Source: Thelephora terrestris (Eukaryota; Basidiomycota; Agaricomycetes; Thelephorales; Thelephoraceae). From it: a stretch of 64,000 nt of DNA. Positions 10,719 through 58,936 of the stretch are shown here, one piece after another. The stretch spans positions 62,001-126,000 of the forward strand of contig WIUZ02000019.1 in assembly GCA_015956445.1 (NCBI GenBank), written 5' to 3'. The position numbers and the translations under genes were made by a program. Under the pieces are notes generated by a model. The model did no database searches. It saw nothing but the letters and a program-made list of their open reading frames with translations, and was not told the origin of the DNA. Numbering within the stretch: the first letter of the stretch is position 1; every line of letters begins with the position of its first letter.

Positions 10719-10724
10719 AAAAAT

Positions 10725-11760: not shown

Positions 11761-11832
11761 GCGGCCCGGATTGGGCCCTGGCTCAGCATCATGAGGCGCT
11801 TACTACACTGTTAGAACAACAATCTCCCCTAG

Positions 11833-14296: not shown

Positions 14297-14353
14297 TTCG
14301 CAGAAACATGTTTCATTTATTTGATGTATGGGCATATCTATACTGTTCAAAGT

Positions 14354-29994: not shown

Positions 29995-31460
29995 TGTCAG
30001 GGCCACTCTACCCCAACAACTACCAGTTCACTGAGCCGACTCCGCAGAGTACTCACTAGTCCAACTAGCTTGTGAGAGAACGTTCACGTCTCTATTCTTC
30101 CGGTAGGTTGTCCGAGGTCACTACAAGTCAGGTCGAAATCCTAAAGAGAAACCCAACCTAAACCGCACTTCGTTCGGTTTAACAAGCAAGGGTTTATCCC
30201 TACAACAGGATTGATGACTCCACCAGTTGATCGACTGGACGCTCGAGGTGTTCTAATATGACTGCTGGGAGTCTATAGTTACGAGGCGCAGTTGAGGCGC
30301 AGAGCGGGAGGGAGAGGAGATGGGGATGTCTTGGATCAAACAAGAAACTCTGACTTGTCCTTAACTGCAACTGGGCTGAGAAGGGCAGAGGATTTCCTGA
30401 GGTAACAAAACTAAGGTACTACGATACAGCCACAGTTGCTACTTATACTAAGGGAGTGGCCATGACGTCAATACCCTAATATACCCTTATCAAGTCCAGA
30501 ACAAAGGGCGATAAGGAGTGTGAGAACGCTAAGTAAGGGAAGCGAACAAGGTGACGCATGGGAGAATAAAGGACAAAGGGCCTTACTAACGTGTGAAGGA
30601 TTGCATAAAAGATAAGGAATGTCCGCATGAAACATAGGGGTAAAGATAACACTAGTCCTAGAAGAAAAAAAAGGGACATGGGTCATGAAAGTTCGTACCT
30701 GAATCTAGACCACACCCAAGGGTCAGGTGAGCACCGTCTCTGAGCTTCTGCGATTGGCTAGAGATAGGAACTCTACACATCCCTTGTTGTCGGTAGGTGG
30801 TATGATACCAACAGACAGGCAGTAACCTGGGAGTTGCAACCATAATCGCTTGATCAGACCCAGTCTTGATTAGGCATAGCACCTGGGAATATTGTTCTTC
30901 CTAAGTGGCACCAGGGATTATATTCTTCGGCCGCCGTTCTCAGCTCGGGCCTACTCTGCTTCCAAAGCACAACTAGACCAGATAGGGTTACTATCCGATT
31001 AGAAGCACAGTGTCCAAATGTTGATACCCCGTGCCCACGTGTGTGTTTCAGGGTCCAGGGTTGGTCGTAATCGTAAAGTCATGAGGGGTCGTAAAAGGGG
31101 TTCGTGATGTCATAAAGGGGTCATCAGGGTCTTGAGACCTATTTTTAGTGCGCGCGCGTTCTAGGCGTTCCGGAACAAAGTTCTTCCAAGGCCGTCCCAC
31201 GGGCCGAGGTGTCAGCTTGATGTAGTAAGCCAACGATGATGGTACAGGGGCGGAAGTTGATGTGACCCGGACCAATGAGGTTCATCGAGGTAGGTCACGT
31301 GAAGGATCACCGATCTAGGCTATAAGAAGGACGTCTTCTTGGAGCCATCCTTGATCAGCAACACCAGCAACTTCCCCCATCATCTTACCACAACATGTCC
31401 TTCCCCAACAACCATACCTACAAAGTCGCCAATGGCATCTCCACCATCTCTCGCATTGAC
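29995..31460 (+). mobile_element. Truncated LTR, family A (copy A3)
   Basis: The 5' 1466 bp of a family A LTR, TGTCAGGGCC onward, is inserted in repeat C1. It stops abruptly at 31460 inside exon 1 of the cargo gene (ATG at 31395, about 22 codons left), where LTR B1 begins. The rest of the LTR is absent on the other side of B1, so a deletion or exchange occurred there. Confidence 0.88.
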
Positions 31461-31480
31461 TGTCAGGGTTGTAGGCCTGC

Positions 31481-32104
31481 TTACTGTTTGTGGGGCGCTA
31501 GAGGATTAGCGGAAGGGTGAGGGGTGTCGGGTCTGGCTTTGAAAGGGGTTCCGGGTGTGGAAACGAGGGGAGGAGGGATATCGAGAGAGAGGGGTGACTC
31601 TGTCTGATAAGGGTGAACGGGTGAGTGGTAGTCTTGGCAGAACTGATTGAGTTGCTGCACAAACGGTTCAAAGTCTTGGTCGCTAAGACGTTCGAAATTG
31701 ACGAGATACTCTATAACGGAATAAGGTAATTCAGCTGGGATCTCCCACCAAAGAACGATGATAGCAAGGGAATGAGTGTGGATGTTAGTGGTGAGGTGAA
31801 CGCGTGGAGAGGGGAAGTAAAAGGCTGGGCTGATACTGAAGTAGACAGTCGCGAGAACGCTCTCAGTAAGATCCAAATTCCAAAGGAATTGGTGATCTGC
31901 TCCTAGTAGAAAGGGGGGAGTAGTGACTCCGGCGTCGAGAGCTGCAAAGGGTCGGTAGTAAGGGAAATGAGTAAGTAAACCGGTGGTTCGGTTTACTTGA
32001 AGACTTCTGATGAGTTTATACTCCCAGATAGATCTTCTAGCATCAGGGACGACTGGTCGCTGGACTGGGCTGGTAGAGGGGAAGGGATTGGGGGCACTGA
32101 ACAT
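31481..32104 (-). CDS. LTR-B cargo ORF 1 (207 aa), copy B1
   Basis: An uninterrupted 207-codon frame begins MFSAPNPFPSTSPVQRPV and contains SIWEYKLIRSLQVNRTTGLLTHFPYYRPF, FLLGADHQFLWNLDLTESVLATVYFS, LTTNIHTHSLAIIVLWWEIP and YLVNFERLSDQDFEPFVQQL, with a Pro-rich tail. The frame has exactly the same length in B2. It ends 20 bp inside the LTR terminus. A TATATA sequence (CTTATATACCC at about 32248) lies upstream in the right orientation. No known family was recognised. Confidence 0.6.
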   Translation of the reverse strand: MFSAPNPFPSTSPVQRPVVPDARRSIWEYKLIRSLQVNRTTGLLTHFPYYRPFAALDAGVTTPPFLLGADHQFLWNLDLTESVLATVYFSISPAFYFPSPRVHLTTNIHTHSLAIIVLWWEIPAELPYSVIEYLVNFERLSDQDFEPFVQQLNQFCQDYHSPVHPYQTESPLSLDIPPPLVSTPGTPFKARPDTPHPSANPLAPHKQ

Positions 32105-32759
32105 ACACTGGCAGGAGGATTCCTGCTGAAATGAGTTAGAAGAGGTAAGACGTGAGGAAAATTCCTCAGCTTACTTTTATTCAGGTTGTGGGTAGAGGAG
32201 TACAGAAGAGATTGAGAATGGGGGAAAGAAGGAGCGAACGCTCTTCCTTATATACCCAATCCTCTACAGGAGTCATTATTCTACAGTGAGTCAAACAAGA
32301 GTCAACATGGTCTGTGCGTAGTTTAGGGTAGGTCGGATGAGTCAGGGGAGGGGGACTTTGGGACGACAAATGACGAAATAAGAATAGGGGAACAATAGTG
32401 AAGGAGTTATTAGAAGCATAATGGGGATTTCTCACGATCGATGGTGGTAATAGAAGACTGGTGGGGATTTCTCATGATCGATGGGGACTTCTCGTGTTTC
32501 ACGGTAGCAGTAGCAGACGGATGGGGTTTTCCCATGATCGATGGGAATTTCTCTGAATTGATGGGATCGCGATTGGGGCTGAAGGTTCGTTTATCCTAAT
32601 GGGGACGTTTAATGGATAATAGGTTATTGTTTTCTCCTTTTGGTTTTCTTTGAGTCAGGATGTATTTAAGTCAGGGGGATTAATGATCATTCCCCTCATC
32701 GTCTCTTTTCCACTCCCAGCAAATCAACCATCCTTCTCTCTTCAACATCTATCACTACT

Positions 32760-33660
32760 ATGTCTGCCTTTGCCAGCAACGCCGTTCTTAACGCCGCCGC
32801 CACCCCCTTCATTCCGTCCTTTGAGACGGACGCTCCCTACGAGGTGGAGCAACTCTTGTACGACACCCCCGCCAACATCGCCCATGACAATCAGGTGGCA
32901 ATAAATTTCCTGACCGCTCACAACGCTCCTGCCGAATTCTGGGAACAGTCCGGGTACGAAGATCCCCGACTTGCTAGGCCTCAGGTTGAGGCTAGACACC
33001 CTGGAGCCGTCCTTCTGTTGGACGCTATGGAGAGGGAGAGGGAGGATAGGATTTTGAAGTTGGAGAAACGTGTGGACCGCATGTACGTCATCTTGAGCGG
33101 TTTGAATGAGGACTTCTCTCACTTTGCTTTGGAACATTGGGGACCTTTTCAGGCATCTCTCTTCCGATACTTCGGACATCAATGCCACGGAGCTTATTGC
33201 ACCGACCCCCCTTGCAAGTCCCCAGTCATCCCTTCGCCACCGCCAGGATCAGGGCGTTCCTCTCCCTCCATCCCCTCCCTGGAGTCCTGCCCCAGTTCGC
33301 CAGATGGTGGAGAGGTCCCAGAAGAAGAAGAACCGCAAGAGTCCAATGACTCGTTCTGGTCAACGTTGTCGTCCCTCCGACAAGTCACGTCAGGTTCGGA
33401 TGAAGTTGAAGGTGGAAGTGGCGGGTCACCAAGACCGTTATGGGTTCGCATTAGTGAGCGCAGCCTTGTCAGACGTGAGGCGGGAGATGCATGATAGTCT
33501 ATATCATGATGTATTGGGGTGTAGGGAGTGTTGGCAGGATCCGGTGACACGAGCGTATTCGTATTGTCCTGAGAGTGTACATAACCCTCACCACTTCGCT
33601 CATTGTTGCCCGTTTGCTCAGGACTGTGCGTGTGACGTAGACCCGTTTGTTCTTGTCTGA
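32760..33660 (+). CDS. LTR-B cargo ORF 2, copy B1 (Cys-rich, short coiled coil)
   Basis: The start MSAFASNAVLNAAATPF is preceded by TATTTAAGTC about 95 bp upstream. A helical segment, AMEREREDRILKLEKRVDRMYVIL, is followed by FRYFGHQCHGAYCTDPPCK. The first frame stays open to 33494. A second frame, open to 33660, ends in a better-conserved Cys-rich tail (CRECWQDPV, YCPESVHNPHHFAH, DCACDVDP). Comparison with B2 shows mostly silent changes in that second frame beyond 33430, so an intron or frame change lies somewhere between 33215 and 33430. I could not fix its ends. Function unknown. Confidence 0.5.
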
Positions 33661-33765
33661 GTTTGTAGTTCTTGTTAGCCACCATTGTACTATTATTACT
33701 GCGAATGAGACCAATGACTTGAATTACTTGTGTGACCTTGGCTATTATGTCACGCGTTTGTGACA

Positions 33766-34421: not shown

Positions 34422-37400
34422 TGTCAGGGCCACTCTACCCCAACAACTACCAGTGCACTGAGCCGACTCCGCAGAGTACTCACTAGTCCGACTAGCTTGT
34501 GAGAGAACGATCACGTCTCTATTCTTCCGGTAGGTTGTCCGAGGTCACTGCAAGTCAGGTCGAAATCCTAAAGAGAAACCCAACCTAAACCGTACTTCGT
34601 TCGGTTTAACAAACAAGGGTTGATCCCTACAACAGGATTGATGACTCCACCAGTTGATCAACTGGACGCTCGAGGTGTTCTAATATGACTGCGGAGAGTC
34701 TATAGTTACGAGGCGCAGTTGACGCGCAGAGCGGGAGGGAGAGCAGATGGGGGATGTCTTGGATCAAACAAGAAACTCTGACTTGGCCTTAACTGCAACT
34801 GGGCTGAGAAGGGCAGAGGATTTCCTGAGGTAACAAAACTAAGGTACTACGATACAGCCACAGTTGCTACTTATACTAAGGGAGTGGCCATGACGTCAAT
34901 ACCCTAATATACCCTTATCAAGCCAGAACAAAGGGAGATAAGGAGTGTGTGAACGCTAAGTAAGGGAAGCGAGCAAAGATGACGCGTGGGAAGATAAAGG
35001 ACAAAGGGCCTTACTAGCGTGTGAAGGATTGCATAAAAGATAACAATAGTCCGCATGAAACATAGGGGTAAAGATAACACTAGTCCTAAAAGAAAGAGGG
35101 GCATGGGGTCATGAAAGTTCGTACCTGGGGATCACACCCAAGGGTCAGGTAGCAATCTCCCTTTACATAGCTATGCCAGCGGATTCGGGAGTAAAGCCAT
35201 GCAACATCCCTTGTTGTCTGTAGGCGGTAACAGCATCACGGACAAGTGGTAACCTCAACGTACGTCCGAACATGAGGAGGTCAGGCCTAGACTCATGGGA
35301 CATGAGGGATTACAGATTCGCCGGCGTTTCACGCTAACGGCTACTCCACATGCGCTGGGCTAACCAGAAGGATCCTAAGGCGATGCTTCCGAATAGCGGC
35401 GAGTCCTTCCTCCGGTTAGGAGACTGTGATGTGACTGTCCACGTGTGTGATCAGGGTCCAGGGTTGATCGTAATCGTAAAGTCATGAGGGGTCGTAAAAG
35501 GGGTTCGTGATGTCATAGAGGGGTCATCAGGGTCTTGAGACCTATTTTTAGTGCGCGCGCGTTCTAGGCGTTCCGGAACGAAGTTCTTCCAAGGCCGTCC
35601 CGCGGGCCGAGGTGTCAGCTTGATGTAGTAAGCCAACGATGATGGTACAGGGGCGGAAGTTGATGTGACCCGGACCAATGAGGTTCGTCGAGGTAGGTCA
35701 CGTGAAGGATCACCGATCTAAGCTATAAGAAGGACGTCTTCTTGGAGCCATCCTTGATCAGCAACACCAGCAACTTCCCCATCATCTTTCCAAAACATGT
35801 CCTTCCCCAACAACCATACCTACAAAGTCGCCAATGGTATCTCCACCATTTCTCGCATCGATCGTCGTGCCGTCGCTCGCAAATCTTACGCCTGTGCGGC
35901 TGGGACTCCCTATACCACGGATGACCAGGTATGGGGGAGAACTAGAGCTTTCTGTGCTAGCACTAACGCCTTCCTCTAGGTAGAGGTTACGTTCTTTTGG
36001 GCGTTGATGTCCAGCTAACGGCTTCTAGATCTTGGAGGTCGTCACGGAGGTGGACGCCGAACGTCTCAGGGAGACGATGCCTCATTTGATGGGGTTGACC
36101 TGGGACGATGAGCTCTGGGTCCGCACGATCATCGCCGAGAAGGTAGCCTTCCGAATGAGGGGTAGGTTCGGGGAGCTGGAGCATCCGGTCAAGAAGGAGC
36201 TCTGGTACACCCTGCAGAGGGGAATCTACGATCAAGACCTATTGGAGCATGGAGCAACCGTTCCTCGAGCCGTCCGCCAGGCTACTGTTGCCACGTCATT
36301 GTTATGGTCGCTCGTTCGGGAGGGGGAGAGCAAGGTAGGTTCTCCGTTTGAATATTCGAGTATGACTCTCGATTAATCAAACTGCCTAGGTTGAGCGTTT
36401 GGAGCGCGAGGTGAAGGAGGCGAAGGCAGACGTCCTTCGTCTGTCTGCGGAGGGTCTTCAGATGAAGGAGACCTTGGCCGCCTTCCAGCAGGGGACGAAC
36501 GAGGCGTTGGAGGCAATGGTTGCCAACCATCAAGAGCTGATCGCCGGTTTGAAGGTTAGGGATAACAACATAAAGGGGGCGTTGGCCAGGAGGGATGAAA
36601 AGGTAGCTTTCCTCATCTCAAAGACGAAATGAGGGAAGCTGACACTTCTTCTAGACTGAGGAGCTCGAGAACGTAGTGGCAGTATTGACGGCGCAGGTCG
36701 AGTCCTTGCAGGACAAGACCTGTAACTGCAAGGAGGGTCCCAAATTGGTTGGTCAGGGGACAGCCGATGTTCCGTTCGAGTTGGAGTACGCCGACGAGGT
36801 GGTACTGCCATCGCCTAACCCGTCGTCCTATGCGACGCCTCCGATCGAGAACGCGGTTCCCGTTCCGACACCAGGTCCGGCTTCCACCTTGGCCGCTTCC
36901 GACAAGGAGAACTGTGGGCGCTGCGTCTTGCAGCCGATCCATCAGTTGGTGAAGATCGAGGATGAGGTCATGGAGGTTGACCGAGCCGAAGATGCTCCGA
37001 GGGTCGCCGAGGTACGTCCGGTGACTAAGGGGCAACGTTGCAAGCGCTCTCGACGCCGTCCTGCTCATCGCATGGCTCCATCGGCTAATCCTTACCCTCG
37101 ACCAGTTGAGTCGGATGGTGACCAGTCTGGTCGAGGTGGGGGACGAGAGTTCCGCTATCGGGTCAACCGTCCCTACCGACAGGTCGAGTCGGAGATCCAG
37201 CTTCGCCACCAGCTACGACTCGCAAGACAGGATCCCACCCAGGGGTCCGACGAGGGAGACGGAGGGTCGCTTGCCGACTACGTCGATAGTGCTGTTGAGC
37301 AGTCACCCGGTGATGGCGATGTGGGACCAGGTGTTCCAGAGTTCAGTGACATCTGGGAGGCTGATCGGTCCGCTCGAAGGAGTCTCTTCCTATCGGCTTG

Positions 37401-37720
37401 AACTAGTCGTTCAGCTGAGTGCCGAAGATGGTGACGCCATGTTCGGGGAGGTTCTTGCGAGGAGGGGCCAGCACTACGATCTCCGGGATGGATGGTTGGT
37501 GACCTTCAGGCCTGCCGTAGATAGAGTCGACTTTTAAGGACGTAGGATAGCACTTGTATAGCTCGTTGTGGATTCGCTGGGAATAGTACGCGCGTGTGTG
37601 TGTTTCGAATGATTGGCATGAAGGATAAGGAGTGTGAAGCATTCAAAACATAAGAAGTGGTAAGAAAAGTTCGAAGAAAGAGCGTGTTATAAAAAGTTTA
37701 AAAATACCATGTTCCTGACA
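34422..37720 (-). repeat. Chromovirus LTR (downstream LTR, copy A4)
   Basis: TGTCAGGGCC...TTCCTGACA on the plus strand. Relative to gag-pol this is the 3' LTR, next to the PPT. It contains the cargo gene in antisense to gag-pol. The 1.4 kb before the cargo ATG shows no gene. A small hydrophobic minus frame (34904-35104) occurs in several copies but shifts its ends, so I do not call it. Confidence 0.95.
35797..37537 (+). CDS. LTR-A cargo gene, copy A4: coiled-coil protein of unknown function (479 aa)
   Basis: Exons 35797-35928, 36029-36334, 36390-36602, 36655-37011 and 37106-37537. Each junction keeps frame: 44 + 102 + 71 + 119 + 143 residues. TATAAGAAGG lies at 35724, 73 bp before the ATG. 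The start is MSFPNNHTYKVANGIST. Residues of about 45-146 are a Trp-containing helical block, about 147-245 a coiled coil, and about 245-336 a Cys-pair, acidic and basic region that could be nuclear or nucleic-acid binding. The remainder is Ser-rich and then ordered (GPLEGVSSYRLELVVQL). It is transcribed opposite to gag-pol. No known domain was recognised. It may act on the element's own expression or silencing, but that is a guess. Confidence 0.72.
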
Positions 37721-37735
37721 TTATCCTCTTCCTGG
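37721..37735 (-). promoter_or_regulatory. Polypurine tract of the chromovirus
   Basis: On the minus strand the bases before the 3' LTR read CCAGGAAGAGGATAA, directly followed by TGTCAGGAAC. This is the expected position and composition of the RNase H-resistant primer for plus-strand DNA synthesis. Confidence 0.7.
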
Positions 37736-37740
37736 ATTGA

Positions 37741-40700
37741 CTAGTCCCTAGTCAATGATCCAATAGGCCATTTTCGAACATCGGTATGAATTGTCATGGG
37801 ACGATGATCTAAAAGGCCTATCCTCTTCCTGCCGCGTTTCTTCCTGGTGGTAACGGGTTTGCCTGACATTGTGCCATCAGGTAGTCGTCGTGGTGCGCCT
37901 GGGAACTGCTTATAGAATTCAGCAATTAGTTCCGGGGAATTCTCGAGGTTGTCTTCATCTTCCCAAGAATTTTCAGTGTCCGGCCAGCCTAACCACTTGA
38001 CGAGGTATTTGAGGTTACCGTGTAAGAACTTGGCATCGAGGATTTTCTCCACTTCCCATTCGGGTTCGCCTTCGACGATATCCGGGGGTGGATGAGGGTG
38101 ATTGGGGTTAAGAGGATCTTCGTGGTAGGGGAATATCTTGGAAACATTCCAGACGGAATGAACGTTCTTCCAGTAGAGGGGTAGCTTGAGTCGATAGGCA
38201 TGTGTGCCAATTTTCTCGATGATCTCAAAAGGACCAGAGTATCGCTCGGATAGCTTTCGGGAAGGACGGTTCAAAGCTAAGTCTGAATTGTCCAAGAGGA
38301 CCTTGTCTCCAACATTGAACTCGGGGGTCTTGTTCCGATGACGATCGTAGAACTTCTTCATATCTTCTGCTGCTTTAGTCAAAGACTCTTCCGTTTGTTT
38401 CTGCACCTCGTGAAGGTGAGATACAAAGTCTTTGACTGACTCGATGGGGGATTGAACTCGAGGGAGGGAACCAATGTGAGGGTGATAACCGTAATTCGCA
38501 TAGAAAGGCGTGGTTTTGAGACCAGAATGATAACGGTTGTTGAGAGCGAATTCGATAACAGGGATCCAGTCGACCCAATCGTCTTGATGATAGGATATGA
38601 CTGTGCGAAGGGCCTGTTCGACTTCTTGGTTGGTTCGTTCCGATTGTCCATCGGTCTGTGGATGATAAGCAGTAGACAGAGCAAGTTCCACACCTAGTTG
38701 TTTGCAAATTTCCCTGAACGATCGTGAGGACATTTGGGGACCTCGATCAGTGATGATCTTCTTGGAGGTACCATGACGTTTCCAAACGTTCTCCAGGTAT
38801 AACTTGGCAAAACCACTAGTATCAAGGGTATCAACGGTGGGGGCGACGTGTTTCATCTTGCCTCGTTTGTCGGTATAGGTAACGACCGAATTATATCCTT
38901 GGCAAGGAGGAAGACCTGTAATCAGATCGGTGGTGACGACTTCCCAAAACCCTGGTGTAACGTCAATAGGTTTGAGGAGTCCGTGGGGTTTCTGATTACG
39001 GTTCTTCTGAGTTTGGCATATGTGGCAGTTCTGAACTCGTTCCTTGATTTCTGTCCGCATCAGTGGCCAATAGAAGTCTCTCTGTATGACTTCTAAACTG
39101 CCTTTGATTCCGGGATGAGCTGCAGGTCCTAAAGCGTGCAACTGCTGGAATACTTCTGAGCGTAGGAGGGATGGAACGTAGATCTTGCCACGATAAGTCC
39201 ATAATTCGCCTAGTAAAGCCCAACCGTTGGGTAGACCGTCAATTTCGGAAGACAGTTGACTTTCAGTCATCGTGTTGAATCCTTGGATAAGTGGATCTTG
39301 TGATTGAGCGATGGCAATTTCTTTTCCAAAGTTTCGCTCATTGAGGGTTTCCGTGATGACCGAATTGATCTTCTGTGCTTCGAAGTTGTCTTTGAAGAGG
39401 GAAGGAGGTAGGAGGATTTGTTCTTCGTCGGGTACATCCTTTGGGACGTGGTCTGCGCGACGAGAGAGGTGGTCAGGGACAGATGATTGTCTGCCTGGTC
39501 GGTAACGAAATTCGAAATAATAGTTGGCCAAGATTTGGGACCACCGTGCCTGTCGTTTGGACAGTTTTCGTTTCGTTTTAAAATACTGAAGGTTGTTGTG
39601 ATCGTTAAGGATGGTGATGGGAAACTTGGTTCCCATGAGGAAGTGATGGAAGGCTTCCAGTGCGCGGATAATAGATAGGAGTTCTCGGTCGTGAGTGTCG
39701 TAACGCGTCTCCGGATCTGTGAAACCTTGAGAAAGACAGCCAATTGGTCGCCATTTGCCTTCATCATCTTGCTGTGACAAAACAGCACCCCAGGCATAAC
39801 CTGAAGCGTCTGTTTCGAGAATGAACTGTTTCTCGTTGTCTGGATGAAGGAGAAAGGCTTCATGAAGGAGGAGGTCCTTCAACTTTTGGTAGGCGTCTTG
39901 TTGAGGAGTTTCCCATTTCCAGGGAGCGTCTTTTTGTAAAAGGTCGTTGAGAGGTCGTGCAATGATGGAGAAGCCAGGGATGAAACGGCGGTAGTAGCTC
40001 ATGATGCCTAAGTAGGCTCGTAGCTCGGAAACGGTAGTGGGTACTGGCCAATCGGTAATTCCTGCGAGTTTGACAGGGTCTGGACGGATTCCTTTGCCCG
40101 AGATGTAATGTCCTAGATAAGGAATCTCTTTCTGCATGATAACACACTTTTCCGGTTTAAGGGACAGTTTGTGTTCTCTGCAAAGCTGGAAGATTTCTTT
40201 AAGAACGGAGAGATGAAATTCTTCGGGACTGAGGAGCTTCCGTGGATCGTAGGAGGTTCCGATGCCTATATCGTCGATGAAGGTTCCAGTATCCCCTCGT
40301 CGTATCTGGACGATGAAGATAGAGTCCATCATAGTCTGGAACGTAGCAGGAGCATTGCACTGTCCAAACGTCATGACGAGGGATTCGAAGAGTCCTCGGT
40401 TGGTGGTGAACGCGGTTTTCCATTCGTCGCCTTCGCGCATTCGGACGTTATAGTATCCAGAGCGAATGTCGAGAGCCGAGAAGTAGAGACAGCCTTTCCA
40501 TTTCTGGATGAGCTCATCAATACGAGGAAGGGGGTAAGCGTTCTTCTTGGTGATGTCATTGAGTCTTCGGTAATCGATAACCATACGTTTCTTGCCATCC
40601 TTCTTATTGATAAAGAAGACAGGGGATGCCAGGGGAGACTCTGAACGACGGATTCGACCATTTGCGAGGTTTTCTTCGATGAAGATATCGAGTTCCTTCT

Positions 40701-41559
40701 GTTCGTCGTAGGAAAGGGGATAGGTATGTGGTTTCCAAAGCTGTGATTCCCAATCGGGTACTAGCTCGATCTTGTGATCCCATTTTCGGTGTGGGGGTAA
40801 CTCTTGATAGGTCATTTCTTCGAATACATCAGCATACGCCTTGAGTGGTCCTTTTCGAATGTCTTCGATGGTCAGGACTTTCTTGTTCTTCAAGTCGTCT
40901 ATAGCCCAACGCATAGCGGCGTTTTCTTTGGCATTGATGGAGTGAGTGATGCGATTGATGTCGAATTGAGAAGAGTACTCCGTGATAACCGAAGCGAAAT
41001 CAAGTGCAGAGGGTAGAACGTCGGATAGAGATTGATGAGCGATGCATGAGGAGGGACATCTGGTGAATGAGATCTGTCCAGTTCGCCAATCGATTTCCGG
41101 ATTGTGGGTTCGTAACCAGGTCATACCAACGATCATAGTCTTGGTGCCTATGTCGGTAACAAGGAACCATTCGGTAGAAATGTGTCCTTTGAAGCTAAGG
41201 GTAAGCTTCGTCTGATGGGTAATGGTAGTGGCGTTGAACGTGTCGTCTGCATTGATGGCATAGATGGGGGTAGTGAGCTTCCGAGTAGAAAGGGCATGAT
41301 CTTGAACAAAAGAGCGGGAAATGTAGGTGGCGGTTGCGCCAGAATCAAGGAGGGCTTCGATGTCGTAAATTTCGTCAGATGAAACTGCAATCTGCAGTTT
41401 GACCATGGGGAATAATCGTGAAAGTCGTGACGATGTTCTGTTGACAACCTTTTGGTTTTCGAGAGCGGCGAGGGGGTGCAATGAGAGTGGGAAAGCAGTT
41501 TCAATTCGCTGCTTAAGGGATGCTAAAAGTACATGGGATTCAGGAAAAGAGGGGATCAT
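37741..41559 (-). CDS. pol: Pol polyprotein of the chromovirus (PR-RT-RH-IN-chromodomain)
   Basis: An intact frame of 1272 aa from the first Met. Domains: aspartic protease (LLDSGATATYI, about 71-80); reverse transcriptase (LDIRSGYYNV at about 363, catalytic FIDD at about 427-430); RNase H (ETDASGYAWG at about 582, HDRELL, NDHNN); integrase with an HHCC finger (H808, H815, C845, C848) and D878, D938, E974, the last pair spaced by 35; a GPF motif (RYSGPFEII); and a chromodomain (WEVEKILDAKFLHGN..YLVKWLGWP..NSWED). The chromodomain, which targets insertion to heterochromatin, defines the chromovirus group. The Pol frame stays open upstream of this Met across the gag stop, so it is probably made as a Gag-Pol fusion by -1 frameshifting. 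No disabling mutation was seen. Confidence 0.97.
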   Translation of the reverse strand: MIPSFPESHVLLASLKQRIETAFPLSLHPLAALENQKVVNRTSSRLSRLFPMVKLQIAVSSDEIYDIEALLDSGATATYISRSFVQDHALSTRKLTTPIYAINADDTFNATTITHQTKLTLSFKGHISTEWFLVTDIGTKTMIVGMTWLRTHNPEIDWRTGQISFTRCPSSCIAHQSLSDVLPSALDFASVITEYSSQFDINRITHSINAKENAAMRWAIDDLKNKKVLTIEDIRKGPLKAYADVFEEMTYQELPPHRKWDHKIELVPDWESQLWKPHTYPLSYDEQKELDIFIEENLANGRIRRSESPLASPVFFINKKDGKKRMVIDYRRLNDITKKNAYPLPRIDELIQKWKGCLYFSALDIRSGYYNVRMREGDEWKTAFTTNRGLFESLVMTFGQCNAPATFQTMMDSIFIVQIRRGDTGTFIDDIGIGTSYDPRKLLSPEEFHLSVLKEIFQLCREHKLSLKPEKCVIMQKEIPYLGHYISGKGIRPDPVKLAGITDWPVPTTVSELRAYLGIMSYYRRFIPGFSIIARPLNDLLQKDAPWKWETPQQDAYQKLKDLLLHEAFLLHPDNEKQFILETDASGYAWGAVLSQQDDEGKWRPIGCLSQGFTDPETRYDTHDRELLSIIRALEAFHHFLMGTKFPITILNDHNNLQYFKTKRKLSKRQARWSQILANYYFEFRYRPGRQSSVPDHLSRRADHVPKDVPDEEQILLPPSLFKDNFEAQKINSVITETLNERNFGKEIAIAQSQDPLIQGFNTMTESQLSSEIDGLPNGWALLGELWTYRGKIYVPSLLRSEVFQQLHALGPAAHPGIKGSLEVIQRDFYWPLMRTEIKERVQNCHICQTQKNRNQKPHGLLKPIDVTPGFWEVVTTDLITGLPPCQGYNSVVTYTDKRGKMKHVAPTVDTLDTSGFAKLYLENVWKRHGTSKKIITDRGPQMSSRSFREICKQLGVELALSTAYHPQTDGQSERTNQEVEQALRTVISYHQDDWVDWIPVIEFALNNRYHSGLKTTPFYANYGYHPHIGSLPRVQSPIESVKDFVSHLHEVQKQTEESLTKAAEDMKKFYDRHRNKTPEFNVGDKVLLDNSDLALNRPSRKLSERYSGPFEIIEKIGTHAYRLKLPLYWKNVHSVWNVSKIFPYHEDPLNPNHPHPPPDIVEGEPEWEVEKILDAKFLHGNLKYLVKWLGWPDTENSWEDEDNLENSPELIAEFYKQFPGAPRRLPDGTMSGKPVTTRKKRGRKRIGLLDHRPMTIHTDVRKWPIGSLTRD

Positions 41560-41624
41560 AGGGGTATCGTCCGCAATCTGAGAAAATTCAAGACTCGCCG
41601 GTGTTGTCTGTCCGGTTTGTCCAT

Positions 41625-41633
41625 CTAAAAAGA
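41625..41633 (-). promoter_or_regulatory. Probable -1 ribosomal frameshift site between gag and pol
   Basis: The minus strand reads TCT TTT TAG at the end of gag. The five-T run allows the Phe tRNA to slip back one base, from TTT to TTT, while TAG is in the A site. The -1 frame then reads TTT TTA GAT GGA CAA and continues open into pol. It is not a classic X-XXY-YYZ heptamer. Re-initiation at the pol Met, 66 nt further on, is the alternative. Confidence 0.5.
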
Positions 41634-43079
41634 CTCCTGGTCTTCTTGTCCCATATTTGGTCCATAATTTGGGGCTCCTGGGATCGAGCCAAACGGTTCT
41701 TCTTCCAAATCAATAAGATTTTCTTCTTCTTCTGCTTCTTCTTCGTTGTCAAATACTCCTGCTTCTTCGAATGCTGCCAAGGGATCTTCCAGTTCATATT
41801 CGTCGTTCCCTTCCTGCCCAAAACCTTGGATGCCATAGATGTATTCTAGAGCGTGCTCTAGTTGTTGAACATGGGTGGAGTCCAACTGTTGAATGTTGGC
41901 CGTGCAATTCCTAGCGTAATGGCCAGGTTGATTACAGGCGTAACAGATAACCTTTCGAGGAGGGGGTTTGGATCCAGAGGGCTTGGAGGGGTTCGGTTTC
42001 TTTGAGGAAGATGACGGTTTGAGATTTCCACCAGTAGGATAAGGAGCTAGACGAGGGTGTGCGGCTCTGACAGGAGGTTTGGACTGTGGTCGACGTAAAA
42101 TGATTCGGGGTTGTTGGCGCATGGCGTCGACTTGCATAGGTCCATAACCTTTGACAGTAGAAGGTTGATAGTTTTGGTGTTGGGTGTTCTTCCCAAAACT
42201 ATTTCCGAATTCGTGCCTGTCGTATTCCCTGGTCGAATCCAGTTGTTCTTGCATTTGAATCAACGCGTCCTTCCACTCGTCGTAAGTGGTAGGAGGTTTT
42301 TCGCGCATAAGGAGTTGCGTGCGAAAGGTTGGAAACGTGTTTTGCTTCAAATGGAAGAAGGCTTGTGGTTTGGTGATATCAACCGCTTGTCGTCGGAAAT
42401 CTTCGAACGCGTCGTAGAAAGCTCGGCACTTTTGACCTTTGTTTTGCTTGTAGGCCATCATCCTTCGATGGAAGTATTGGGGAGCGTTTTGTATTCCGTA
42501 TAGCTTCAGGAATTGTGCGGTGAAAGCATCCCAATTATCGAAGTAATGAGGTTTGACATTTCCAGCGGTACTGGTGGCCAAAGCGTTGCGAACATTCTGT
42601 GCCCATTGCTTGGTTTTACTGCACTTGCTGAGAAGGTTAAGGGTGACAAGAATTCGATTCTTCGTGTACCTCATTGCTTTAGGCTTCGTTTTGAAGTAAG
42701 CGGCAAGTCGGTCCAAAAAGGGTTGTGCGTCCGTTTCTGTTCCAGAAAACTCTTCAGGCATGGGAAAGTCTTTAATGTCTTCAACTCCAGGTTCCAACGG
42801 AAACGACTCATAGTCGACGTTAGCAGTAGGGGTGGATAAGATAGGGTTGGTAACTGTCTGAATCCGTTGAGGAGGAGTGATGGCGGTAAGAAGCGCATTG
42901 AAGTTGGCTTGGGTAGCTAATGGTGCGGCCTGTGCAGCTGTAAGCTGTTGATTCAACGCTTGGTTTTGTGCTTGCAGCTGGGTTTGTAAGGCTGCCGATT
43001 GTACCAAGTAGCGCTGCAGATCAGTTGCATCTGCTACGTTGTAGGTGTCATTGCCCAAGGTAACGTTGTTGACGGCCAT
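41625..43079 (-). CDS. gag: Gag protein of the chromovirus
   Basis: A 484-aa frame with the Ty3-type capsid region (FPMPEEFSGTETDAQPFLDR through ALIQMQEQL, about 105-280), a basic linker, the CCHC zinc knuckle CYACNQPGHYARNC (379-392) for RNA packaging, and an acidic tail. It ends ESF-stop at 41625-41627. The frame is open upstream of the first Met to about 43671 as a Ser/Pro/Arg-rich stretch without an ATG, so a spliced or non-AUG start is possible. Confidence 0.95.
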   Translation of the reverse strand: MAVNNVTLGNDTYNVADATDLQRYLVQSAALQTQLQAQNQALNQQLTAAQAAPLATQANFNALLTAITPPQRIQTVTNPILSTPTANVDYESFPLEPGVEDIKDFPMPEEFSGTETDAQPFLDRLAAYFKTKPKAMRYTKNRILVTLNLLSKCSKTKQWAQNVRNALATSTAGNVKPHYFDNWDAFTAQFLKLYGIQNAPQYFHRRMMAYKQNKGQKCRAFYDAFEDFRRQAVDITKPQAFFHLKQNTFPTFRTQLLMREKPPTTYDEWKDALIQMQEQLDSTREYDRHEFGNSFGKNTQHQNYQPSTVKGYGPMQVDAMRQQPRIILRRPQSKPPVRAAHPRLAPYPTGGNLKPSSSSKKPNPSKPSGSKPPPRKVICYACNQPGHYARNCTANIQQLDSTHVQQLEHALEYIYGIQGFGQEGNDEYELEDPLAAFEEAGVFDNEEEAEEEENLIDLEEEPFGSIPGAPNYGPNMGQEDQESF

Positions 43080-43737
43080 GACTAATGGAGGTGTCTGAAG
43101 AGGTGGTAAAGGTAGAGGGCTTGGCGCTGTCGGTGTAGGAGGTCGTGAAGCAATTGGAGATTCTGGAGAACGAGGAAGATTTGGAGAAGTAGAAGGAAAT
43201 ACCGGGGAGGAATGGTGAGACGAGCGAGGGGATTGTTGAGAGACTGGGGTGACTCTTCGAAGAGCGTCTTCGTAGACGGAGTGATCTGAAGAGGCCGGGG
43301 TAACAGGCCTTGGCTCTAGTGGTTCGTCGTCGTCAAAGAAACCTCCAGGTAGATCTGAAAGTTGAGAAGAAGAGGGGAGAAGAGCGAGTTGGCGTGGGAC
43401 TGGGGTGTTAAGAGGGGACTGAGAAGTAGGAGTTGATTGAAAGGAGGGGATGCGAGGGGTGAAACGAGATAATAGAGTTGAGCTGTTTGAAGCGAGAGTA
43501 GCACGGTACGCTCGAGCTTCAGCTGGAGATGAGAGACGTTGTAAAGAGGGTTGAGAGGGTGAAGGCTGTATGCGACGCCTTTGAGGGGTGTCTTCTGTAG
43601 ACGAATCTGATTCCTCTCCTGAGACAGGGGGCCGAAGTCTTCTTCTGTTAGACGAAATGGTTGTCCGTCTTTAAGCAACAGTGAGAGCTTCGCGATGTGG
43701 TGGGTGAACAAGGTACCGGCTGGTAGTTTTGTTACTC
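43080..43737 (-). other. Leader between the chromovirus 5' LTR and the first Met of gag
   Basis: This is 658 bp with no separate gene. The gag frame is open through most of it (RRRLRPPVSGEESDSSTED, then Ser/Pro-rich) after a TAA near 43672. A competing frame (43316-43711) has no ATG. The primer-binding site should be at the LTR border but does not resemble a tRNA 3' end. Confidence 0.5.
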
Positions 43738-46700
43738 TGTCAGGGCCACTCTACCCCAACAACTACCAGTGCACTGAGCCGACTCCGCAGAGTACTCACT
43801 AGTCCGACTAGCTTGTGAGAGAACGATCACGTCTCTATTCTTCCGGTAGGTTGTCCGAGGTCACTGCAAGTCAGGTCGAAATCCTAAAGAGAAACCCAAC
43901 CTAAACCGTACTTCGTTCGGTTTAACAAACAAGGGTTGATCCCTACAACAGGATTGATGACTCCACCAGTTGATCAACTGGACGCTCGAGGTGTTCTAAT
44001 ATGACTGCGGAGAGTCTATAGTTACGAGGCGCAGTTGACGCGCAGAGCGGGAGGGAGAGCAGATGGGGGATGTCTTGGATCAAACAAGAAACTCTGACTT
44101 GGCCTTAACTGCAACTGGGCTGAGAAGGGCAGAGGATTTCCTGAGGTAACAAAACTAAGGTACTACGATACAGCCACAGTTGCTACTTATACTAAGGGAG
44201 TGGCCATGACGTCAATACCCTAATATACCCTTATCAAGCCAGAACAAAGGGAGATAAGGAGTGTGTGAACGCTAAGTAAGGGAAGCGAGCAAAGATGACG
44301 CGTGGGAAGATAAAGGACAAAGGGCCTTACTAGCGTGTGAAGGATTGCATAAAAGATAACAATAGTCCGCATGAAACATAGGGGTAAAGATAACACTAGT
44401 CCTAAAAGAAAGAGGGGCATGGGGTCATGAAAGTTCGTACCTGGGGATCACACCCAAGGGTCAGGTAGCAATCTCCCTTTACATAGCTATGCCAGCGGAT
44501 TCGGGAGTAAAGCCATGCAACATCCCTTGTTGTCTGTAGGCGGTAACAGCATCACGGACAAGTGGTAACCTCAACGTACGTCCGAACATGAGGAGGTCAG
44601 GCCTAGACTCATGGGACATGAGGGATTACAGATTCGCCGGCGTTTCACGCTAACGGCTACTCCACATGCGCTGGGCTAACCAGAAGGATCCTAAGGCGAT
44701 GCTTCCGAATAGCGGCGAGTCCTTCCTCCGGTTAGGAGACTGTGATGTGACTGTCCACGTGTGTGATCAGGGTCCAGGGTTGATCGTAATCGTAAAGTCA
44801 TGAGGGGTCGTAAAAGGGGTTCGTGATGTCATAGAGGGGTCATCAGGGTCTTGAGACCTATTTTTAGTGCGCGCGCGTTCTAGGCGTTCCGGAACGAAGT
44901 TCTTCCAAGGCCGTCCCGCGGGCCGAGGTGTCAGCTTGATGTAGTAAGCCAACGATGATGGTACAGGGGCGGAAGTTGATGTGACCCGGACCAATGAGGT
45001 TCGTCGAGGTAGGTCACGTGAAGGATCACCGATCTAAGCTATAAGAAGGACGTCTTCTTGGAGCCATCCTTGATCAGCAACACCAGCAACTTCCCCATCA
45101 TCTTTCCAAAACATGTCCTTCCCCAACAACCATACCTACAAAGTCGCCAATGGTATCTCCACCATTTCTCGCATCGATCGTCGTGCCGTCGCTCGCAAAT
45201 CTTACGCCTGTGCGGCTGGGACTCCCTATACCACGGATGACCAGGTATGGGGGAGAACTAGAGCTTTCTGTGCTAGCACTAACGCCTTCCTCTAGGTAGA
45301 GGTTACGTTCTTTTGGGCGTTGATGTCCAGCTAACGGCTTCTAGATCTTGGAGGTCGTCACGGAGGTGGACGCCGAACGTCTCAGGGAGACGATGCCTCA
45401 TTTGATGGGGTTGACCTGGGACGATGAGCTCTGGGTCCGCACGATCATCGCCGAGAAGGTAGCCTTCCGAATGAGGGGTAGGTTCGGGGAGCTGGAGCAT
45501 CCGGTCAAGAAGGAGCTCTGGTACACCCTGCAGAGGGGAATCTACGATCAAGACCTATTGGAGCATGGAGCAACCGTTCCTCGAGCCGTCCGCCAGGCTA
45601 CTGTTGCCACGTCATTGTTATGGTCGCTCGTTCGGGAGGGGGAGAGCAAGGTAGGTTCTCCGTTTGAATATTCGAGTATGACTCTCGATTAATCAAACTG
45701 CCTAGGTTGAGCGTTTGGAGCGCGAGGTGAAGGAGGCGAAGGCAGACGTCCTTCGTCTGTCTGCGGAGGGTCTTCAGATGAAGGAGACCTTGGCCGCCTT
45801 CCAGCAGGGGACGAACGAGGCGTTGGAGGCAATGGTTGCCAACCATCAAGAGCTGATCGCCGGTTTGAAGGTTAGGGATAACAACATAAAGGGGGCGTTG
45901 GCCAGGAGGGATGAAAAGGTAGCTTTCCTCATCTCAAAGACGAAATGAGGGAAGCTGACACTTCTTCTAGACTGAGGAGCTCGAGAACGTAGTGGCAGTA
46001 TTGACGGCGCAGGTCGAGTCCTTGCAGGACAAGACCTGTAACTGCAAGGAGGGTCCCAAATTGGTTGGTCAGGGGACAGCCGATGTTCCGTTCGAGTTGG
46101 AGTACGCCGACGAGGTGGTACTGCCATCGCCTAACCCGTCGTCCTATGCGACGCCTCCGATCGAGAACGCGGTTCCCGTTCCGACACCAGGTCCGGCTTC
46201 CACCTTGGCCGCTTCCGACAAGGAGAACTGTGGGCGCTGCGTCTTGCAGCCGATCCATCAGTTGGTGAAGATCGAGGATGAGGTCATGGAGGTTGACCGA
46301 GCCGAAGATGCTCCGAGGGTCGCCGAGGTACGTCCGGTGACTAAGGGGCAACGTTGCAAGCGCTCTCGACGCCGTCCTGCTCATCGCATGGCTCCATCGG
46401 CTAATCCTTACCCTCGACCAGTTGAGTCGGATGGTGACCAGTCTGGTCGAGGTGGGGGACGAGAGTTCCGCTATCGGGTCAACCGTCCCTACCGACAGGT
46501 CGAGTCGGAGATCCAGCTTCGCCACCAGCTACGACTCGCAAGACAGGATCCCACCCAGGGGTCCGACGAGGGAGACGGAGGGTCGCTTGCCGACTACGTC
46601 GATAGTGCTGTTGAGCAGTCACCCGGTGATGGCGATGTGGGACCAGGTGTTCCAGAGTTCAGTGACATCTGGGAGGCTGATCGGTCCGCTCGAAGGAGTC

Positions 46701-47036
46701 TCTTCCTATCGGCTTGAACTAGTCGTTCAGCTGAGTGCCGAAGATGGTGACGCCATGTTCGGGGAGGTTCTTGCGAGGAGGGGCCAGCACTACGATCTCC
46801 GGGATGGATGGTTGGTGACCTTCAGGCCTGCCGTAGATAGAGTCGACTTTTAAGGACGTAGGATAGCACTTGTATAGCTCGTTGTGGATTCGCTGGGAAT
46901 AGTACGCGCGTGTGTGTGTTTCGAATGATTGGCATGAAGGATAAGGAGTGTGAAGCATTCAAAACATAAGAAGTGGTAAGAAAAGTTCGAAGAAAGAGCG
47001 TGTTATAAAAAGTTTAAAAATACCATGTTCCTGACA
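43738..47036 (-). repeat. Chromovirus LTR (upstream LTR, copy A5)
   Basis: 3299 bp, offset by exactly 9316 bp from A4 and identical to it wherever compared. Relative to gag-pol this is the 5' LTR and should hold the promoter on the minus strand. TTTTTATAACACG, near its minus-strand start, is TATA-like. Confidence 0.95.
45113..46853 (+). CDS. LTR-A cargo gene, copy A5 (identical to A4)
   Basis: Exons 45113-45244, 45345-45650, 45706-45918, 45971-46327 and 46422-46853 give the same 479-aa product as copy A4. Identity is expected, since both LTRs were made from one template in the last transposition. An element therefore always carries two copies of this gene. Confidence 0.72.
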
Positions 47037-49020: not shown

Positions 49021-49604
49021 CCGCTGTCGAGTTTGCTGAGGTTGTAGTGAAGAGGTCTATAAGAACTCTTACTAGTCCTTCTTGGTTTACTTAGAAGCTA
49101 AGTGTTAACAACTAAGTAGGCTGGTTGAGAAGTCAGTTATCCCGACTATCAACTCCACAGGGTGGGCGGGGTTTCGTACTTTCTGGCCCCTTGTCCTGAT
49201 GAGTTCGCTGAAGGAGGTTGTAGGTCCTTCAGATGTGTTCAGAGGGGTTCAGTAACCTTTATCACTACTGCACGTATATTCCCTGGTCCAAACACCTAGT
49301 AAGAATGTAAAGGGGGTTGCTGATCTTGATAAGAATGGAGTTCCTGATCTACGCAGATGATCAGGAATGGAGATAATGATATGTGAAACTGATACAATCG
49401 AGGCTGTGTATGAGGCTGTGAAGAAGGCTGTGTAGAATGCTGTGCACTGTGGCTGTGTAAGTGGCTGTGCTGTGGCTGTGTTAAGGGGGTGGCTGTGCTA
49501 ATACTTCTGAGGCTGTGCTGATATGTCTGAGTAGTTTTGATGATCTGTCAATATACTGCTGAGGTACGTCCAAATGCTGCTGAGTGTCAGGGTTGTAGGC
49601 CTGC

Positions 49605-50228
49605 TTACTGTTTGTGGGGCGCTAGAGGATTAGCAGCGGGGTGAGGGGTGTCGGGTCTGGTCTTGAAGGGGGTTCCGGGTGTGGAGACGAGGGGAGGAGG
49701 GATGTCAAGCGAGAGAGGTGACTCGGTTTGATAAGGGTGAACGGGCGAGTGGTAGTCTTGGCAGAACTGACTGAGTTGCTGCACAAAAGGTTCGAAGTCT
49801 TGATCGCTAAGACGTTCAAAGTTGACGAGATATTCTATGACAGAGTAAGGTAATTCAGTTGGGATTTCCCACCAAAGAACGATAATAGCAGGGGAGTGGG
49901 TGTGGATATTAGTTGTGAGATGAACACGTGGAGAGGGGAAGTAAAAGGCCGGACTAATACTGAAGTAGACAGTCGCAAGGACGCTCTCAGTAAGATCTGA
50001 ATTCCAAAGGAATTGATGATCTGCTCCTAGTAGGAAGGGAGGAGTGGTGACTCCGGCGTCGAGAGCTGCAAAGGGTCGATAGTAAGGAAAATGAGTAAGT
50101 AAACCGGCGGTTTGGTTTACTTGAAGACTTCTGATGAGCTTATACTCCCAGATAGACCTTCTGGCGTCAGGGATGACTGGTCGCGGAACTGGGCTGGTAG
50201 AGGGGAAAGGATTAGGGGCGCTGAACAT
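49605..50228 (-). CDS. LTR-B cargo ORF 1 (207 aa), copy B2
   Basis: The frame has the same 207-codon length as in B1, with about ten residue changes (for example NQTAGLLTHF for NRTTGLLTHF). Its Trp/Tyr-rich centre (FLLGADHQFLWNSDL, IIVLWWEIPTELPYS) is conserved. Persistence of the frame through divergence suggests that it is or was translated. No family was recognised. Confidence 0.6.
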   Translation of the reverse strand: MFSAPNPFPSTSPVPRPVIPDARRSIWEYKLIRSLQVNQTAGLLTHFPYYRPFAALDAGVTTPPFLLGADHQFLWNSDLTESVLATVYFSISPAFYFPSPRVHLTTNIHTHSPAIIVLWWEIPTELPYSVIEYLVNFERLSDQDFEPFVQQLSQFCQDYHSPVHPYQTESPLSLDIPPPLVSTPGTPFKTRPDTPHPAANPLAPHKQ

Positions 50229-50883
50229 ACACTGGCAGGAGAATTCCTGCTGAAATGAGTCAGAAACGGTAAGGTGTGAGGAGAATTCCTCAGCTTACTT
50301 TTATTCAGGTTGTGGGTAGAGGAGTACAGAAGAGATTGAGAATGGGGAAAAGAAGGAGCGAACGCTCTCCCTTATATACCCAATCCTCTACAGGAGTCAT
50401 TATTCTACAACGAGTCAAACAAGAGTCAACATGGTCTGTGCGTAGTTTAGGGTAGGGTAGATGAGTCAGAATGAGGGGACTTAGGGCGACAGATGGTAAT
50501 TACTCATACGGGAACAGTAGGGGCACGAGTCGATGGAAGCATTCAGGGATTTCTCGCGTTTCATGGTAGTAATAGAAGCGTGGTGGGGATTTCCCGTGAT
50601 CGATGGGGATTTCTCTGGATCAATGGTAGCAATAGAAGCGTGGTGGGGATTTCCCATGATTGATGGGGACTTCTCTGAGTTTGATGGGATCACGACCAGG
50701 GTTAAGGGTTTGTTTATCCTAATTCGGACCTTAATGGATAATGGGTTATTGTTTTCTCTTTCCGGTTTGCCTTTTGAGTCAGGAGGTATTTAAGTCAGGG
50801 GGATTAATGATCGTTCCCTCCATCGCCTCTTTTCCACTCCCACCACTCAACCACTACTCTTCTCTTAACCATCTGCTACTACT

Positions 50884-51784
50884 ATGTCTGCCTTCGCTGC
50901 CAACGACGTTGTCCTCAATGCTGCCGCCGTCCCCTTCACTCCATCCTTTGAGACGGATGCTCCCTACGATGTGGAGCAACACTTGTACGATACTCCCGCC
51001 AACATCGCTCACGACAATCGGGTCGCCGTCAATTTCCTCACCGCTCACGATGCTCCCGCCGAGTTCTGGGAGCAAGCTGGCTACGACGACCCCAGGCTCT
51101 CTAGGCCTCGGGTTCAAGCTCATCATCCTGGAGCTGTTCTTTTGTTAGACGCCATGGAGAGGGAACGGGAGGATAGGATTGCGAAACTGGAGCAGCGTGT
51201 GGATCGCATGTACGTCATCATGAACAGTTTGAATGATGACTTCTCTCACTTCGCTTTGGAACATTGGGGACCTTTCCAGGCATCTCTCTTCCGATATTTC
51301 GGACACCAATGTCGCGGAGCTTATTGCACCGACCCCCCTTGCAAGTCCCCAGTCGTCCCTTCGCCACCGCCAGGATCAGGGCATTCCTCTCCCTCCATCC
51401 CCTCCCTGGAGTCCTGCCCCAGTTCGCCAGATGGTGGAGAGGTCCCAGAAGAAGACCCGCAAGAGTCCGATGACTCATTCTGGTCAACGTTGTTGTCCCT
51501 CCGACAAGTCACGTCAGGTGCGGATGAAGTTGAAGGTGGAAGTGGCGGGTCTCCAGGACCGTTATGGGTTCGCCTTAGTGAGCGCAGCCTTGTCGGACGT
51601 GAAGCGGGAGATGTATGATAGTTTATCTCATGATGTGTTGGGGTGTAGGGAGTGTTGGCAGGATCCGGTGACGCGAGAGTGGTCTTACTGTCCTGAGAGT
51701 GTTTATAACCCTCACCACTTTGCTCATCGTTGCCCTCTTCCTCAGAACTGTTCATGCGATATCGACCCGTTTGTTCTTGTCTGA
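50884..51784 (+). CDS. LTR-B cargo ORF 2, copy B2 (Cys-rich, short coiled coil)
   Basis: Equivalent to 32760-33660. It starts MSAFAANDVVLNAAAVPF, with TATTTAAGTC about 95 bp upstream. The coiled segment MEREREDRIAKLEQRVDRMYV, the motif CRGAYCTDPPCK and, in the second frame, the tail CRECWQDPVTREWSYCPESVYNPHHFAH are kept. The change of frame between 51340 and 51555 is again unresolved. A 3-bp length difference from B1 (one Glu codon) keeps the first frame. Confidence 0.5.
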
Positions 51785-55830: not shown

Positions 55831-55925
55831 GGGGTGGCTCAACGCTGTTGCACCCAATTCACTCATGGCGAACTCGTGGCGAACACACAACACCATGAGG
55901 CGCCTAGAGCCACAGTCTCCTCTTC

Positions 55926-58890: not shown

Positions 58891-58936
58891 TTCGCAAAAA
58901 TCGTTGCATAGCTTTGCTGTAAGGGCATATCGGAAA

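Follow-up and report, generated by a model that had tools for sequence, protein, structure and literature searches.

Long terminal repeats (LTRs) are treated as non-coding DNA whose divergence serves as a neutral clock. Can an LTR also be a gene? The question is raised by the retrotransposon at positions 34422-47036 of the window (the whole stretch of 64,000 nucleotides analysed here, from contig WIUZ02000019.1 of the ectomycorrhizal basidiomycete Thelephora terrestris), in each LTR of which a preliminary description had placed a five-exon protein gene antisense to gag-pol. The LTRs do carry an antisense gene with introns, and purifying selection on it is strong; about 45% of this LTR is under selection at the codon level. 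The element, a complete member of what we call family A, is a young Ty3/gypsy chromovirus. Its two 3299-bp LTRs show 0 differences (34422-37720 versus 43738-47036), have TG..CA ends and are flanked by a 5-bp target-site duplication (TSD; AGGAT), as are the solo LTRs A1 (15847-19151, ATCAG) and A2 (23972-27272, ATCGG). Its minus-strand gag-pol has matches to a CCHC knuckle in gag, followed by protease, reverse transcriptase, RNase H and integrase in this order, the integrase ending in a chromodomain.

The model with which we started (35797-35928, 36029-36334, 36390-36602, 36655-37011 and 37106-37537) agrees with what had been described: it has an ATG start, GT..AG introns (i.e., predicted splicing) and an orientation opposite to the gag-pol domains, and it encodes 479 amino acids (aa). 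We aligned 31 copies of the gene: the window LTR, A1, A2 and, from one genome (40.6 Mb, 60 contigs), the 28 others that best matched 36655-37537 when 40 of 489 candidates were scored; L001 and L002, which are the window itself, were left out. The exon lengths of 132, 306, 213, 357 and 432 nt, reported to be identical in copies A1, A2 and A4, are so, and they recur in 26 of the 31 aligned copies. The exceptions (L020, L025, L026, L027 and L029) are truncated or carry insertions. With the lengths kept, 25 of the 31 lack a premature stop, which is present in L014. Exon lengths are fixed while intron lengths vary: intron 1 has 98-101 nt in most copies and 54 nt in L021 and L022, and intron 3 has 51 or 52 nt. 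In several deposited models, intron 1 (35929-36028) is interrupted by a 6-nt exon (35980-35985). The matches to the protein, at 79-96% identity across the whole query, are named Thelephora terrestris. Deposited proteins comprise 257 members in 71 A-type clusters and 61 in 3 clusters of a sister type (see below), all under that species name. Two protein searches (best 8000 and 7996 candidates scored) gave only T. terrestris-named proteins and one metagenome protein, the LTR context of each match being unchecked.

The evidence for selection comes from the substitution pattern. Pooled across every pairing of 24 distinct coding sequences, the ratio of nonsynonymous to synonymous divergence (dN/dS) in the frame of the model is 0.083 (dS 0.209, dN 0.017), far from 1. 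This bears out the earlier suggestion that the protein is selected for, and the count on which that suggestion was built (19 silent and 4 replacement changes in exon 2 between A2 and A4) was reproduced exactly. The uncorrected ratio (pN/pS) is 0.094 in this frame, 2.33 and 2.64 in the shifted frames, and 1.73, 0.19 and 2.92 in the antisense frames. We rejected a chance open reading frame (ORF), given that four of the five other frames lie at 1.7-2.9, against the low ratio of the frame in question. In exons 1-3, divergence per site is 0.17-0.20 at third positions and 0.005-0.016 at second positions. The stretch upstream of the ATG (35440-35796) has a nucleotide diversity of 0.014, below that of all introns and of the 3' part (0.036-0.25), from which we infer that the gene may have its own promoter there; diversity is lower still at 34822-34921, which few copies cover.

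The end of the gene required a different model. The fifth exon as first drawn has an odd ratio of 0.40, and phase-resolved diversity shows that the frame of exon 4 is selected through the 94-nt fourth intron and for some 200 nt further, after which the other frame takes over. Among 26 copies (95% codon bootstrap in brackets), pN/pS in the exon-4 frame is 0.060 over 36655-37011, 0.103 over 37012-37104 (0.030-0.273) and 0.275 over 37105-37314 (0.169-0.424). The frame first proposed gives 1.40 over 37105-37314 (0.735-3.05), and the tail frame gives 0.125 over 37316-37534 (0.050-0.250). In a likelihood scan of 32 copies, some of them truncated, a switch of frame at 37289 (within 2 units for 37273-37327) is ahead of the 94-nt intron by 15.8 log-likelihood units. 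The best intron scanned, 37245-37302, is 0.7 units above that switch, with several other late introns and an unspliced frame change within about 1 unit of it; the last intron is placed there provisionally. The corrected model encodes 491 aa with a pN/pS of 0.077 (codon bootstrap 0.058-0.099), versus 0.104 before. The protein is at its most basic in the retained stretch, where a run of 15 residues includes 8 lysines or arginines. The 94-nt intron does satisfy the splice rules, and of the four phase-keeping introns described earlier, the GT..AG borders and the fixed exon lengths stand. What does not stand is the 94-nt intron as the only form, since this stretch is selected as coding sequence.

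How old is the association between gene and element? A search with pol (35 scored of 162 candidates) gave 8 copies at 98-100% identity, 3 at 61-62%, and the remainder at 33% or less. The gene adjoins pol on the opposite strand at all 8 family-A loci and at all 3 loci of the more distant group, the sister family S, i.e., at 11 of the 11 loci with at least 61% identity. Most copies of the element thus carry this conserved protein gene, opposite in orientation to gag-pol. At the three sister loci, the tblastn matches to the gene beside pol are at 32-41%, and one sister LTR (2931 bp, ends TGTCAGGGCCACTC..CAGCACGCTGACA, from L061 987 to L040 1477) contains the whole gene. The two genes share 33% identity (tblastn E 3e-19, residues 38-217). 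Introns 2 and 3 fall at the same codons in both, and intron 1 is in roughly the same position. The deposited sister protein (493 aa, 51 members) has the counterpart of intron 4 spliced out too. Among eight sister copies (the 3 pol-adjacent ones and 5 chosen from the most divergent of 40 listed), selection on the exon-4 frame continues across the annotated intron (0.137) and as far as about position 900 (0.18), versus 2.5 and 1.05 in the other frame; beyond about position 900 these copies vary too little to decide the frame. Both overlapping frames are nearly invariant over some 300 nt of the sister LTR (L040 900-1225), as in two-frame coding. The A and S proteins in the retained frame align with a score that 0 of 2000 shuffles reached, and have GQR, RPAHRM and NRPY in common; the arginine-rich motif occurs in both families. 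The frame that follows the 94-nt intron has no A-S similarity (1877 of 2000 shuffles as good), a further ground on which we rejected this intron as the sole form. The tail frames show no similarity between A and S either (959 of 2000 shuffles as good), and the last exons of the two families cannot be called homologous on this evidence. Because the sister family has a homologue at the same place in the LTR, with matching introns, the LTR gene is older than the split between A and S and very probably an ancestral accessory gene of the chromovirus lineage. By the same comparison, it evolves faster than pol (33% versus 61% identity between A and S).

The position of the gene within the LTR suggests how its introns could survive. 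Positions 3-15 of the family-A primer site are complementary to an LTR segment over 13 nt with one mismatch (equalled in 8 of 300 shuffles; 12 nt are exactly complementary), and positions 3-13 of the sister primer site are exactly complementary over 11 nt (4 of 300 shuffles; 22 of 300 for 12 nt with one mismatch). In A and S these segments lie 33-35 nt after the TATA box, at corresponding places and with different letters. The single statistics are modest; since both partners changed between the families, they suggest self-priming of the Tf1/Tj1 type. With the border between U3 and R set by the TATA box and the primer-site complement, the gag-pol RNA would start near 34842, U3 would measure about 2.87 kb and the gene would therefore lie wholly within U3. 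It occupies 183-1923 bp from the U3 end, inside the LTR and not between pol and the 3' LTR (20 bp separate the end of the pol frame from the LTR). The genomic RNA would carry the gene once, in the 3' U3, and its introns would persist through reverse transcription because this RNA would hold the gene only as its complement, from which they are not removed. Each insertion would regenerate two gene copies. An antisense position in U3 would then be a route for an intron-containing gene through an RNA intermediate.

What becomes of the gene when an element is reduced to a solo LTR? Genome-wide, we counted 416 right LTR ends (at most 2 mismatches; 0 in the reversed control) and 8 perfect LTR-internal junctions, with 15 more at 2-3 mismatches, so that about 400 of the 416 ends are solo or truncated versus 8 complete elements. 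Six ends were examined from 8 drawn at random (the pool being 45 listed of 100 perfect ends shown, most closely spaced ends omitted). Two were intact in the first model (L064 and L066), and four were truncated, stopped or diverged. In the corrected model one of the six is intact, L066 having a stop in the retained frame. The idea that solo LTRs become mobile gene copies is therefore not supported. Among 26 copies in the first model, changes found in a single copy comprise 64 replacements, 92 silent changes and 1 stop, and shared changes 56 replacements and 192 silent ones (neutral expectation: 0.673 replacement, 0.298 silent, 0.029 stop). Of the 157 single-copy changes, 151 are in copies labelled solo by position, this status being judged from the positions of pol. 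The weaker constraint on unique changes fits selection on the active lineage and decay after deposit; selection would act mainly in lineages that still transpose, while solo copies drift at least in part. Two family-A pol copies (L036 and L037; C23:1034786 and 1044096) share their orientation, are separated by 9310 bp and have equal match scores, as expected for a tandem element with a shared middle LTR.

Taken together, the data very probably reflect an ancestral U3 accessory gene of the chromovirus lineage, with its own promoter and transcribed against gag-pol. Its function is a more tentative matter. A nuclear regulatory protein acting in trans on the transcripts or LTRs of the element is the proposal that we favour, as plausible without being probable. 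With its helical N-terminus, coiled coil, C.C motif and arginine-rich stretch, the protein would act in the nucleus, where it would aid expression, export or escape from silencing, and selection on active elements would then keep its gene. Its C-terminal half would use two frames, probably via alternative splicing or a late intron. A structure model of the spliced form (28 deposited relatives) places a helix at residues 126-242, with a predicted local distance difference test score (pLDDT) of up to 92. We regard as doubtful the wider proposal that the LTR is itself a gene unit encoding an antisense, alternatively spliced, two-frame U3 regulator, so that recombination to solo LTRs would remove gag-pol and leave many trans-acting regulator genes as a heritable memory, a brake on or a help to later waves of the same element, with family B (below) as a second, independent case.

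Several points weigh against these readings. One antisense frame is likewise low in pN/pS, because its silent positions are those of the coding frame. The low upstream variation could also come from recombination among LTRs. The 28 added copies were chosen by similarity to the window gene, which over-represents intact ones. In the retained frame, one of the eight sister copies (L072) has two stops, and 3 of 26 family-A copies (A1, L019 and L066) have stops within 37012-37242; exons 1-3 contain a stop in 1 of 26, and the tail frame in none of 26. By motif, 54 of the 71 deposited A-type clusters have the spliced frame, 2 the retained one (P0050 and P0063) and 15 neither, and some of these intron-4 splices are perhaps supported by RNA. 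Because the retained frame is selected and yet stopped in these copies, and because the deposited models mostly splice, both forms of the C-terminus probably exist. As to function, the structure model has a mean pLDDT of 49, i.e., low confidence overall; for the A and S proteins, all Pfam matches were sub-threshold; a PDB sequence search found no relative of known structure; and the motifs invoked are weak by themselves.

The explanation that competes best with a helper of the element is a self-limiting repressor, which would restrain the element by copy number, solo LTRs supplying the protein and immunising the genome against relatives. It would fit the excess of solo or truncated LTRs, some with intact genes, over just 8 complete elements that are 98-100% alike in pol. 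It would also fit the single-copy changes, which are mostly in solo copies and still lean silent (64:92, about 0.3 of neutral). Selection is weaker at the level of the single element, however, and an extra silent bias at the tips can be a legacy of the period before deposit, when a copy still belonged to the active lineage. On balance we think a repressor unlikely. The excess of solo units over full elements, together with the gene-bearing LTR-like units of family B, for which two places examined revealed no internal region, could also mean that the LTR is a mobile unit in its own right, which bears a gene and is used as ends by a retrotransposon. The unit, however, has TG..CA ends and a 5-bp TSD, contains a TATA box and the primer-site complement, and is bordered by a polypurine tract and a primer site, which makes this very improbable. 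Slightly less probable still is that the transcript matters rather than the protein. The gene is antisense to the genomic RNA, and regulatory antisense transcripts are discussed for LTR elements (PMC7264820, in the portion available); third-position variation and pN/pS of 0.05-0.1 over hundreds of codons require translation, in addition to which there could be RNA effects. Least probable is a recently captured host gene carried as cargo, the analogy drawn in the preliminary description: the gene is spliced and has its own upstream region, but this was rejected by the sister homologue at about 33% identity with matching introns, by the same orientation and place in 11 of 11 elements from two families, and by the best-scored matches, among which there is no clear host paralogue and no other named species. 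We thus retain the ancestral U3 accessory gene.

The coordinates of the gene, the element and their neighbours are given in the table.

Table. Features of the window discussed in the text (positions in the window; strand as read in the window).
Feature	Position	Strand	Remarks
LTR-borne antisense gene, ATG to stop	35797..37537	+	wholly within the putative U3
Exon 1, 132 nt	35797..35928	+	
Exon 2, 306 nt	36029..36334	+	
Exon 3, 213 nt	36390..36602	+	inside predicted long helix, residues 126-242 of deposited relative P0002
Exon 4, corrected, runs through intron 4 of the first model	36655..37244	+	C.C motif and Arg-rich motif KGQRCKRSRRRPAHR
94-nt intron 4 of the first model and of most deposited models	37012..37105	+	selected as coding sequence
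Best-scoring candidate for a later last intron, 58 nt	37245..37302	+	likelihood scan; GT in 32/32 copies, AG in 31/32
Last exon, tail frame	37303..37537	+	tail-frame pN/pS 0.125; stops in 0/26 copies
LTR segment complementary to primer site	34830..34842	-	33 nt after TATA box at 34875-34870
Complete Ty3/gypsy chromovirus, family A	34422..47036	- (sense)	identical LTRs, TSD AGGAT, domains, mismatch-free LTR-internal junction
3' LTR (gag-pol sense), TGTCAGG...CCTGACA, 3299 bp	34422..37720	+	U3 ~37720-34850, R/U5 ~34850-34422 (inferred)
5' LTR (gag-pol sense), identical copy	43738..47036	+	second gene copy at 45113-46853
gag frame, open over 681 codons between stops, with CCHC knuckle	41625..43670	-	Retrotrans_gag match under its cut-off
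pol frame, open over 1322 codons between stops	37741..41709	-	protease, reverse transcriptase, RNase H, integrase, chromodomain
Polypurine tract CCAGGAAGAGGATAA	37721..37735	-	directly before 3' LTR
Primer binding site	43722..43737	-	directly after 5' LTR
Solo LTR A2	23972..27272	+	TSD ATCGG; gene at 25349-27088, unchanged exon lengths
Solo LTR A1	15847..19151	-	TSD ATCAG; gene at 16033-17771, unchanged exon lengths; stop in retained exon-4 frame
Truncated family-A LTR A3	29995..31460	+	ends at family-B unit
Family-B solo-LTR-like unit	49585..51889	+	TSD CTGAG; ORFs minus 50228-49605, plus 50884-51618
Second family-B copy	31461..33765	+	ORFs minus 32104-31481, plus 32760-33494

The gag and pol frames overlap by 85 nt (41625-41709) in different minus-strand frames, which suggests a programmed frameshift between them. 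A 281-bp segment of the LTR (35155-35435) fails to align in A3, L003-L005, L021 and L030, marking LTR subfamilies. Elsewhere in the window, three related ORF-bearing stretches in 8279-14338 and 55905-58931 (75-83% DNA identity) form an apparently duplicated gene family near the retroelements.

The two family-B units in the window are 87% identical, and the flanks of the second (TTGAC and CTTAC) do not match. Each has two divergent ORFs under selection (omega 0.071 for the minus ORF and 0.197 for the plus ORF, the latter without signal near its end, 1.04); one opposite-strand frame of the minus ORF is at 0.145, by shared silent positions. There are 288 right ends genome-wide (0 in the control), and the minus-strand protein has relatives at 43-91% in metagenome or ENA records. 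In two LTR pairs, with one inner border each, no chromovirus gag-pol was recognised in the internal region. Beside one family-B unit (L063) there is a long open frame that by eye resembles a reverse transcriptase of non-LTR type. A relation between the A-type protein and the B-type plus protein was considered and dropped (hhalign probability 3.2); none is claimed.

With about 45% of the LTR under selection, LTR dating and neutral-rate estimates in the T. terrestris genome would be biased. Some hundreds of the 'hypothetical proteins' of this species are probably LTR genes. Solo LTRs can still encode the putative regulator of the element, so that trans-regulation by solo LTRs is directly testable.

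Two viral genes invite comparison, in both cases by description. HBZ of human T-cell leukaemia virus type 1 (HTLV-1) is antisense, spliced, expressed from the 3' LTR and of leucine-zipper type. The T. terrestris gene resembles it in orientation, in splicing (predicted here) and in its association with the 3' LTR, and differs in that the coding sequence of HBZ is mostly outside the LTR. The superantigen gene of mouse mammary tumour virus (MMTV) lies, like ours, within U3 and in two copies per provirus; unlike ours, it is in sense orientation and encodes a membrane protein whose target is the immune system. In the open-licence literature (titles and starts of abstracts) we found no LTR described as harbouring an antisense protein gene, and the available portion of the T. 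terrestris genome paper (PMC7550596) does not mention an LTR gene. The consulted part of PMC7264820 describes an antisense promoter inside the HTLV 3' LTR, and antisense additional ORFs in LTR elements, both in plants (aORF-3R of Grande, as gene23, and of RIRE2, Retand and PvRetro13) and in the fungal Boty. The plant ORFs encode proteins of unknown function, one of which (Grande) is nuclear, and that of Grande has its own promoter (PMC7264820). Self-priming is described for Tf1/Tj1-type Ty3/gypsy elements, whose RNA is complementary at its 5' end to their own primer site (PMC4600332, as far as available). Our elements share this self-complementarity, here 11-13 nt and computed only; an LTR gene is not mentioned for Tf1/Tj1 in that portion of the source. 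Antisense accessory ORFs are thus already known in LTR elements, and the location inside the LTR is what differs. Going by the same partial description, our gene is like aORF-3R a conserved protein gene antisense to gag-pol and present in most copies; unlike aORF-3R, which lies between pol and the 3' LTR, it is inside the LTR, occurs twice per element, contains introns and is kept in solo LTRs.

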